Source of the DNA: Candidatus Dojkabacteria bacterium
Lineage (GTDB): Bacteria > Patescibacteriota > Dojkabacteria > SC72 > WJKH01
Assembly: GCA_014729235.1 (NCBI GenBank)
Contig: WJKH01000018.1
Span: forward strand, 1-52,922
DNA length: 52,922 nucleotides
Direction of reading: 5' to 3'
Shown here: positions 45,622-49,355 of the stretch, piece after piece
Position numbering within the stretch: the stretch's first letter is position 1
How the letters are laid out: every line of letters begins with the position of its first letter
Notes under the pieces: generated by a model
Seen by the model: only the letters and a program-made list of their open reading frames with translations
Databases searched by the model: none
Told to the model about the DNA's origin: nothing
Program-made: the position numbers and the translations under genes

Positions 45622-47808
45622 ATGAATAGCAAGGAACAAAAACCTACAATTCTAAATTACTATGCGCTTGCCGCGTTCTTTTCCTCAATAGTATTAGGAA
45701 TCGCATATATAACCCTATTTCTCTGGAAAGAAATTGGAATATCACACCTGATATACTATGCGATACTATTTACACTTGCAGTGATCCCCGTGTTTGTAAC
45801 CGAGAAAGCACAAGCCAAAACAAAGTTTTCAAACTGGCTGATATTGCTTCCTGCATCACTTGCCGCATCATTCTTATTCGTTTACAGGCTAAATCCGGGA
45901 TGGGTAACATTTGCATTTTTATCACTTCCGGTTTTATACGGATTTCTTTTAAGGGCAGTGTTTATCTCTAGTACGGCTAAAAGCTTTAACATATTATCTT
46001 TCTTGGTTTTACCGATTTTGTTTGTAGCGTCCTGGTTTGCTGATATTGGTAAGTTCGTAAGAAACCTGAGATTCAAGGTAATAAAAACAAATGGAGTAGG
46101 GACCGTTGTAAAAAGAGTTGTTACCGGGATTTTGGTTGCGGCACCGTTTTTGTTGTTTTTTGGTGTTTTGCTGTCTTCGGCAGATGCCAAGTTTGGAAAG
46201 GAACTCGGCATTTTCTTTGAGAAAATCTTTGGGGATTGGTTTACTGATGACTTAATCTCAAATCTGGGAAAGCTATTTGTTGGATTTTTGGTCTCGATAT
46301 ATTCAATGATTTACTACTTTTCACTCTGGAATCCTGAGTCGAATCTTGCCAAAATGATGAATAAAAATAATAATCGTGAGCTAAAAGAGGCCAAGAGGAA
46401 ATGGAACGCTATCTCTGTATCTGTGTTTCTATTCGCACTTAACCTGCTCTTCCTTGCTTTTGTAGCATTTCAATTTAAATACCTGTTTGGTGGTGACGAT
46501 AATATTTTTAAAGAGGAGGGATTCACTTATTCGCAGTACGCCAGAAAGGGCTTTGGTGAGCTATCAGTTGTTGCTCTATCTGCGTATTTGGTAATGTTAG
46601 TGATTAATTCCAAGGCGTTGATCCAGAAAGAGGCTGAAAATATTATTTATAGAGCTAATTACATCATATTGGCAGTCTGCATACTGATAGTTACATATTC
46701 AGCGTTTGCAAGGCTGGCTTTGTATCAGCAAATGTATGGTTATACAGAGCTTCGCCTTTTTGCCAGCACGGGAATTGTTTCGATCGCAATTCTGTACGTT
46801 ATGCTAATTTTATCAACTTTTATGAAACGTCCTCTTAAATTTACAAACACTATTATCTGCGTGTTGGCTGTAGCTTTTTATCTGTTTTGGATTATGCTGC
46901 CTCAAGATTATGCCGTAGCCAAGCTTAATTATCTGAGGTATAAGAATACTGAGAAAATTGATGTACCATATCTTTTGGGCCTTTCAGATGAGGCAATTCC
47001 TGTATTGATTGAAATGGGCGAAGATCCTGAAGTTTCACAGTCAATCCAAATACTGATTTACTCTGAGCTGGAAGATCGGTGGGAGGATGTAAAAGACTCT
47101 CGTAAAAATTGGCAATCCTGGAATTTGATTTATGAATATAATCGCAAGCGGCTTGCAGAGATTAATGAGTCTGCATGGAGTGATAAGGCCAGAGAGCAGC
47201 TTCAGACCTTTTTAGACGGGTATGAAGAGGCTGTCTTGACCGGACAGTTTGAGTATGCTTATGAAAATTATTGGACTAAACACTCAGTTCCACTTGATCT
47301 TAGTGAGTTGGAACAATTTACAATTACAAAATATGAGTTCGAAGGGGTTCCTGAGTTTGATGACTGGGCTATTCTAGGTGATTCAGGCACTGAATACTGG
47401 ATGGGCATGGAGATTGCAGCTGACATTGAATACAACTACTTGGATGATGGGTCAATGTGTGATAACCGGGGGTATACGTCGAGAGAAATGTGTGATGAGT
47501 ATAAGCTACGCTGTGGTGAAGATACAGAAGCTGTTTCAGATAATTCAAGCGGTGTCTTTTTCACTTACGATTCGGATACCGGTTCATTTACAGCAATGAA
47601 TGATCCGGATAGCTCTGAAAGCTGCCAGATTCGTGTTTCTGCAAAAGAGAGAGATTACGTTCGTGTTGTACTTGAAAACGGTGAATGGCGAATAAAAGAT
47701 TCGTCTCTGATGACATTGGGAAATTTTCGAGATGGTAATAGCGGGAGGGTTCTTGACGAAAATAAATATTTCGAGCAAAATGTCGACTTTTCACCTATGA
47801 GACATTAG
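45622..47808 (+). CDS. DUF4153/DUF4173-like polytopic membrane protein with soluble C-terminal region
   Basis: 728 residues. Residues ~1-440 contain about 11-12 hydrophobic helices, with the segment 'LLFFGVLLSSADAKFGKEL' that recalls the DUF4153/DUF4173 family (LLxSAD-x-F). Later parts include a long acidic/aromatic soluble region ('VPYLLGLSDEAIPVLIEMG', many Trp and Glu). The last ~170 residues look like a small beta domain with two Cys pairs ('CDNRGYTSREMC'). Function of the family is unknown. The start ATG at 45622 lies 18 bp after repeat R2. The soluble C-terminal part may be outside the cell; this is not certain. Confidence 0.75.
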   Translation: MNSKEQKPTILNYYALAAFFSSIVLGIAYITLFLWKEIGISHLIYYAILFTLAVIPVFVTEKAQAKTKFSNWLILLPASLAASFLFVYRLNPGWVTFAFLSLPVLYGFLLRAVFISSTAKSFNILSFLVLPILFVASWFADIGKFVRNLRFKVIKTNGVGTVVKRVVTGILVAAPFLLFFGVLLSSADAKFGKELGIFFEKIFGDWFTDDLISNLGKLFVGFLVSIYSMIYYFSLWNPESNLAKMMNKNNNRELKEAKRKWNAISVSVFLFALNLLFLAFVAFQFKYLFGGDDNIFKEEGFTYSQYARKGFGELSVVALSAYLVMLVINSKALIQKEAENIIYRANYIILAVCILIVTYSAFARLALYQQMYGYTELRLFASTGIVSIAILYVMLILSTFMKRPLKFTNTIICVLAVAFYLFWIMLPQDYAVAKLNYLRYKNTEKIDVPYLLGLSDEAIPVLIEMGEDPEVSQSIQILIYSELEDRWEDVKDSRKNWQSWNLIYEYNRKRLAEINESAWSDKAREQLQTFLDGYEEAVLTGQFEYAYENYWTKHSVPLDLSELEQFTITKYEFEGVPEFDDWAILGDSGTEYWMGMEIAADIEYNYLDDGSMCDNRGYTSREMCDEYKLRCGEDTEAVSDNSSGVFFTYDSDTGSFTAMNDPDSSESCQIRVSAKERDYVRVVLENGEWRIKDSSLMTLGNFRDGNSGRVLDENKYFEQNVDFSPMRH

Positions 47809-48488: not shown

Positions 48489-49355
48489 TTACTGAATCCC
48501 TTGAGCGTTCCCAGCAGTGTTTTCAAAGATGAAATCATGCATTTTGAAGTATGCATCATCTCCACCTTGTACACGTGCACATTCAGCTATCTGTGCCTCC
48601 TTTGAAGCAACAGGCTCATGAAAACTCAAAGGCAAATCTCTGAAAACCCAGATAACTTTATCTGTTTCAATATAATTTTCTTCAATTTTCTTACCTGTCC
48701 CGGTAGCATGGCGTTTACAGAAAGGGCACTCGTAATCGCTGAATTCTACAACAGCAACTTTTGCTTGATCACTGCCTTTCTTTGGATCATCATCAATTGA
48801 TACCTCTACCCCGTGCTCAAGTCCTTCCAGATCCGGATCATTCTCTTGAAATGAGCCGTCGTTCAGATATTTTTCTATAACCTTGGAAAAAGTCTCATAT
48901 GGATATGCTCCTGGAATTCGAGTTCCCTTAACGATTCCGTCTTCATTTAGTTTGCCTACCACAAATCCAGGGGTACCTGTTATCCCAATTAGAGCACCAT
49001 CATCTAGATCTTTGTTTCTTTCTTCAGAAAAATCCTCGTTTTCAACGCAATTTACTAGTTTTTTTCGATTTAATCCGATTTCCTTAGCGTAATCGTAGGC
49101 TTTTTCGTAATTTGGGACTTTGGGTTGCTCCGGTTGTTCTGCAATATTATCACCTGAATCAGCCCTTTCCCCAAGCACACTTGCTGTGGGCAAATTTTTG
49201 AGGCTGAAAATTAAAGCAAGAGATATAATAACCGACCCAATAATAATCGAAACTGGCGTTAGATAAGCGGTCAGGTTCTCAGGAAGCAAAATTTCAATAG
49301 TATCGCTCTGTTTTTTACTTGTTTTCTTCCTTGAGCTCTTCTTTTTTCTAGGCAT
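48489..49355 (-). CDS. DsbA-like thioredoxin with circularly permuted order
   Basis: 288 residues. Basic N-terminus, transmembrane helix at about 35-52, acidic linker. Residues ~84-164 resemble the C-terminal half of DsbA-like (Thioredoxin_4) proteins: 'YDYAKEIGLNRKKLVNC', the cis-Pro loop GITGTPGF (Pro129), and 'GAYPYETFSKVIEKYL'. Residues ~185-280 resemble the N-terminal half: 'DDPKKGSDQAKVAVVEFSD', active site CPFC (210-213), 'WVFRDLPLSFHEPVA', 'IAECARVQGGDDAYFKMHDF'. In the family CPFC comes first and cis-Pro ~100 residues later; here the order is reversed. All key residues are kept, so it may be a working oxidoreductase for exported disulfide proteins. Confidence 0.8.
   Translation of the reverse strand: MPRKKKSSRKKTSKKQSDTIEILLPENLTAYLTPVSIIIGSVIISLALIFSLKNLPTASVLGERADSGDNIAEQPEQPKVPNYEKAYDYAKEIGLNRKKLVNCVENEDFSEERNKDLDDGALIGITGTPGFVVGKLNEDGIVKGTRIPGAYPYETFSKVIEKYLNDGSFQENDPDLEGLEHGVEVSIDDDPKKGSDQAKVAVVEFSDYECPFCKRHATGTGKKIEENYIETDKVIWVFRDLPLSFHEPVASKEAQIAECARVQGGDDAYFKMHDFIFENTAGNAQGIQ

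Follow-up and report, generated by a model that had tools for sequence, protein, structure and literature searches.

The gene on the minus strand at positions 48489–49355 of the window (the whole stretch of 52,922 nucleotides analyzed here, contig WJKH01000018.1 of a Candidatus Dojkabacteria bacterium) very probably encodes a natural circular permutant of the DsbA/Thioredoxin_4 thiol:disulfide oxidoreductases, one that would be pinned by a disulfide, would oxidize exported proteins, and would have arisen by recurrent duplication and loss. DsbA introduces disulfide bonds into proteins that are exported. As read from the sequence, the two halves of its domain are swapped in order, the cut falls in a loop that connects two helices within the helical insertion, and both the catalytic residues and a second pair of cysteines are kept.

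The open reading frame runs from an ATG to a TAA stop and encodes 288 residues. A Pfam search with the protein aligned positions 127–190 of the PF01323 profile, its C-terminal part, with residues 88–160, and positions 8–89 of PF13462, its N-terminal part, with residues 193–279. The whole-protein E-values, 1.8e-18 for PF13462 and 1.1e-8 for PF01323, both pass the curated cut-offs, and the match of the two halves is therefore not due to chance. DsbA proteins of solved structure likewise align with the protein in two blocks of reversed order. Thus, both halves of a DsbA/Thioredoxin_4 domain are significantly matched, the canonical order (N-half before C-half) is absent, and the chain reads membrane helix, DsbA C-half, linker, DsbA N-half, stop. 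Because the window protein shares this reversed order with 53 other homologues, it is classed as a circularly permuted variant and not as an ordinary member of the family. The swapped order, the coordinates, and the named residues put forward in the preliminary description of this DNA are all borne out; the strand, which it left unstated, is minus.

A Lys/Arg-rich start is followed by a membrane helix at residues 28–52 (49200–49274, minus strand, as are all features below), predicted as a helix by AlphaFold2 (AF2) and with a hydropathy maximum of 2.44 over 19 residues. This N-terminal helix predicts that the soluble domain lies outside the membrane. The DsbA C-half occupies residues 84–166 (48858–49106), as delimited by the PF01323 match, our own HMM, and AF2 pLDDT, and comprises helices, the cis-Pro loop, the last two strands, and the terminal helix. 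Within it are Cys103 of the motif LVNC (49047–49049), a conserved residue and the putative partner in a structural disulfide, and the Gly-Thr-cisPro loop at residues 127–129 (48969–48977), which directly precedes strand 130–136 of the AF2 model. Thr-Pro, of putative cis geometry, is present in 127/127 homologues, and the Gly is invariant in A1, a profile of permuted proteins, and in A2, a second profile. The linker, residues 167–184 (48804–48857), leads from the former C terminus to the former N terminus; as an HMM gap, its length is 10–71 residues across the 54 permuted homologues. The N-half, residues 185–280 (48516–48803; PF13462 match and AF2 pLDDT), carries the conserved active-site CPFC at residues 210–213 (48717–48728), placed where the first helix of the thioredoxin half begins (strand 200–206 and then helix 211–218 in the AF2 model), and Cys259 of the motif AECA (48579–48581), the putative partner of Cys103 across the cut. 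The helical insertion is present, its helices 84–92, 97–105, and 110–122, together with 248–279, now lying at opposite ends of the domain. The new C terminus, the NAQGIQ region (48492–48515), falls within the cut loop of the helical domain, which is also the loop opened at T99/Q100 in the engineered permutant of E. coli DsbA.

When the two halves were scored separately in the fetched loci, the majority of homologues had the N-half first (NC order) and a minority the reverse (CN order). Reading of the ORFs confirmed 54 permuted proteins, the window protein counted among them, out of 171 single-domain homologues, the other 117 being canonical. These 54 come from more than 10 family groups, all of the same phylum, and the existence of homologues in the same order, as the preliminary description had proposed to seek, means that the arrangement does not rest on one contig; it is also seen in the single-contig genomes G527 and G540. 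An N-terminal hydrophobic helix is found in 53 of the 54, the exception (L002) being cut by a contig end. Full-length collinear matches to profile A1 were found in 7 of 86 genomes of the window's class (E ≤ 1e-20) and, at a strict cut-off (E ≤ 1e-52 to 1e-54), full-length matches in 8 of 380 sampled genomes of the phylum. At the same strict cut-off, full-length matches to A2 number at least 45 in 374 genomes of the class of G252 and at least 5 in 45 of the class of G086, lower bounds for these samples. No NCBIfam model scored above its cut-off for the four permuted proteins searched. Among the 80 loci kept from a scan of genome contigs with the window protein, none from outside the phylum gave a permuted DsbA. 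The order in the loci sampled outside the phylum is canonical only, which makes a change from canonical to permuted the likely direction. Two genomes of one genus each carry two different permuted DsbA genes (L003 and L113 in G061, L002 and L114 in G072), which sit in separate parts of the tree, and no canonical DsbA was among the matches in these genomes at E ≤ 1e-20. A separate architecture is seen at L116:1992-3659 (G052), where S-layer homology repeats and a canonical DsbA domain are joined in one ORF of 556 residues.

Each of two families has a chromosomal site at which, among the same neighbors, dsbA is canonical in some genomes and permuted in others. At the first site, the permuted gene of G068 lies in the order ftsA, ftsZ, a gene X, dsbA (minus strand), two further genes, and an amidase gene. 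G075 and the genomes of family f9 that were read have a canonical dsbA at that position and in that orientation, flanked by ftsA, ftsZ, and X and, on the opposite side, by the amidase gene (the short L177 contig covers only part of this locus). At the second, in family f18, dsbA is permuted in G086, G184, and G774 and canonical in G413, with genes for YgjP-like and VanW proteins downstream in each. Two weaker cases share a single neighbor: hsp20 follows both the permuted gene of L003 and the canonical genes of L016 and L021, and pfkB follows both the permuted gene of L031 and a canonical gene of L043. The window's own gene has no neighbors in common with the compared loci, and G001, the only other genome covered from the family of the window's genome, gave no DsbA match. 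A further recurrent arrangement concerns the canonical gene, which repeatedly follows a pair encoding a BlaI-like repressor (PF03965) and an M56 peptidase (PF05569), as at L062:2476-4561 and in L038, L162, L163, and L165.

A phylogenetic tree of 101 rows was built after the halves of every row had been put into canonical order and joined. On it, the label "permuted" needs 10 changes, and a single clade of the 15 permuted rows is rejected by the AU test (p = 3.5e-5), as it is for the N-half alone (p = 0.0026) and the C-half alone (p = 0.033). A larger tree of 49 permuted and 73 canonical rows needs 9 changes, at least 5 of them forced by well-supported branches, and a single permuted clade is again rejected by the AU test. 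The window's gene adjoins the canonical gene of G080, although with weak support (96/28), and lies apart from the large permuted clade, which is mostly from the class of G252. From these trees, permuted DsbA seems to have arisen several times in the phylum, and we claim no exact number of events because some joins are not rejected and the changes may include reversions. The strongest alternative, which we regard as unlikely, is that the permutation took place once, long ago, and that the genes later reverted to the canonical order several times or underwent conversion between copies. It would account for the finding that 37 of the 49 permuted rows fall in one part of the tree, mostly in that one large clade, and individual joins between some pairs of permuted groups are tolerated by the data (p values of 0.05–0.39). 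Nevertheless, one clade of all permuted rows is rejected by the full data and by each half, each reversion would need a second exact permutation, and the permuted gene of G068 is nested among canonical genes of the ftsZ/amidase locus.

Recurrent permutation is thus preferred. By the proposed route, the region that encodes the exported domain would first have been duplicated in tandem, and the first N-half and the last C-half would then have been lost. This series of events would have happened more than once in the phylum, and at least twice at a site where relatives keep the ordinary gene. Tandem duplication and loss of the outer halves is the standard genetic route to circular permutants; the preliminary description had offered it as an alternative to permutation, but it is not truly a rival. 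Duplication intermediates of the order NCN or CNC were not found at patescibacterial loci. Tandems of the order NCNC, which is canonical, occur only in Myxococcota and one archaeon among the loci scored; the Myxococcota ORFs L103, L107, and L109 have three to four tandem canonical DsbA domains per chain (L103 being cut by the end of the locus). Two complete domains disrupted by a frameshift or joined by readthrough were considered for the window's gene and rejected, the frame ending in TAA with no second half or remnant upstream or downstream; orthologues with two full domains and a frameshift, which the preliminary description had named as the observation that would count against it, were seen at no patescibacterial locus. 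Overall, it is probable that the dsbA gene of this phylum has been permuted in place repeatedly, at least several times, with the same loop cut each time and the ends held by a structural disulfide that was already there, and that selection favored this permutant, for example because it shifts the membrane anchor away from the thioredoxin domain and onto the helical domain.

The predictions show high-confidence halves for the window protein and a match over the full chain to an engineered permuted DsbA. The AF2 model has a pTM of 0.69 and a pLDDT of mostly 91–97 in blocks of 10 residues over both halves: about 91–97 over most of the C-half, falling to about 83 near residue 165, and about 93–97 over most of the N-half, with one block of 73 near residues 241–250. 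Confidence is low in the anchor region. For a distant permuted protein, L019, pLDDT is mostly 93–98 over both halves and pTM is 0.71. The alignments given to AF2 were shallow (11–14 rows), and the network may have seen PDB entry 1un2 in training. Compared with the PDB by Foldseek, both models align over 198–200 columns with 1un2, the only DsbA entry matched end to end; most canonical DsbA structures align over only about 50–140 columns. For the window protein 1un2 ranks fifth (TM-score by target 0.57, RMSD 7.2 Å), and for L019 it ranks first (0.61, 6.0 Å). With an RMSD of 6–7 Å over 198–200 columns, this match speaks to topology and not to atomic detail. A chain of 7jve, aligned over 201 columns, was discarded as an end-to-end match, its RMSD of 15.6 Å and TM-score of 0.31 amounting to no real superposition. 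The permuted order of 1un2 itself is confirmed by alignment, because the first 99 residues of E. coli DsbA correspond to its positions 96–194, and the natural ends share a loop with the E. coli T99/Q100 cut, from which they are offset by no more than −10 to +6 alignment columns. The earlier proposal of a permutation cut inside the helical insertion is accordingly supported from three sides, by the homologues of the same order, by the confident models of both halves (the structure prediction it had called for), and by the end-to-end match to 1un2.

On this basis, the two halves would come together as a single DsbA domain at the outer face of the cell membrane, with the linker bridging the former C and N termini. 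The halves might instead complement each other between chains as a domain-swapped dimer, a notion prompted by the linkers of only 10–12 residues in some homologues and by a prediction run as a monomer only. We consider this improbable, as the monomer models of both the window protein and L019 are confident over the two halves and their topology is matched end to end by the engineered permutant.

Residues were tallied in 15 permuted and 112 canonical homologues. Both cysteines of the CxxC motif and the Thr-Pro of the cis-Pro loop (Thr128-Pro129 here) are universal (15/15 and 112/112), and Cys103 and Cys259 are both kept in 15/15 permuted proteins. At the corresponding positions of the 112 canonical proteins, both cysteines are present in 108, both are absent in 4, and one alone is never found. 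When a canonical relative is aligned with Wolbachia α-DsbA1 (3f4r), each position meets a cysteine, and the two lie 49 residues apart, which is the spacing of C97-C146, the pair mutated in 3f4t according to the title of that PDB entry. We infer that Cys103 and Cys259 form a structural disulfide equivalent to the second disulfide of α-DsbA1, which would staple the new N- and C-terminal helices together and so pin the two new ends and close the helical domain. The disulfide of the CPFC motif, aided by the Thr-cisPro, would then oxidize the cysteines of exported proteins as in an ordinary DsbA.

The permuted arrangement is shown by sequence comparison to be conserved and under purifying selection in relatives, with dN/dS of about 0.09 in one permuted pair (dN 0.13, dS 1.43) and about 0.21 in a second (dN 0.27, dS 1.28). 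That the gene is a functionless, degenerate remnant of a tandem duplicate is very improbable: the canonical order has been lost, and a duplication with lost outer halves had been raised at the outset, but the catalytic residues are all invariant, related permuted pairs show a dN far smaller than dS, the protein is the sole DsbA match in its own genome, and no remnants adjoin the gene. An artefact of assembly or binning, conceivable in a draft of 88 contigs, has a negligible probability given the same order in 54 homologues from many assemblies, including the single-contig G527 and G540.

The genome in which the permuted enzyme is the only DsbA match is 94.7% complete, and it has no Pfam match for VKOR (PF07884) or DsbB (PF02600), an absence that is not certain at this level of completeness. 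VKOR is found in 33 of the 86 genomes of the class, with and without permuted DsbA and in no clear pattern, and neither protein was therefore retained as a co-occurring partner. With neither partner recognized in its genome, the enzyme may act as a reductase or isomerase instead of an oxidase. Elsewhere in the window, positions 45622–47808 encode a 728-residue membrane protein with a DUF4153 match and a long C-terminal part free of Pfam matches.

The closest known counterpart is 1un2, the engineered circular permutant Q100T99 of E. coli DsbA (Hennecke, Sebbel and Glockshuber 1999, as cited in PMC3281007 and PMC12667903). It shares with the window protein the order of the halves, the loop that is cut, and the full-length fold, but it is man-made, soluble, and from E. 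coli, whereas the window protein is natural and membrane-anchored, has a second cysteine pair across the cut, and belongs to a family of variable linker length. The statement in the preliminary description that no described permuted DsbA is known is thus contradicted by an engineered protein; for natural ones, no report was found in the literature searched, a body that covers few subscription journals. Ordinary members of the DsbA/Thioredoxin_4 family (PF13462, PF01323), such as BdbD, α-DsbA1, and P. aeruginosa DsbA2, are homologous in both halves and have the CxxC, the Thr-cisPro, the helical insertion, and in some cases the second cysteine pair; in the solved members, however, the halves are unswapped, and these align with the window model mostly over one half. 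For the membrane proteins that partner DsbA, VKOR and DsbB, a relationship by circular permutation has likewise been put forward, with duplication and deletion as the mechanism (PMC4555120); these, however, are four-helix proteins for which one ancient event is proposed, whereas here the thioredoxin-fold partner would be affected, and repeatedly. PDZ domains provide another small domain that is naturally permuted, with four natural forms reported in PMC12667903; they differ in fold and in having several permuted forms where one cut recurs here.

The difference in architecture is a real one, and profile-based domain annotation hides it in many genomes of the phylum. The anchor of canonical relatives precedes the thioredoxin half, and that of the window protein precedes the helices of the helical domain, so that in the permuted enzymes it enters the domain at a different place. 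The active site may as a result be held differently toward the membrane, and this change is a possible selective reason for the permutation. The natural cut reproduces that of the classic engineered permutant. Natural circular permutations are, to our knowledge, for the most part documented as one-time ancient events that set distant relatives apart. Here, the ordinary and the permuted enzyme are found in relatives at the same chromosomal site, which opens to direct study how a permutation comes about, why it is selected, and what it costs in folding.
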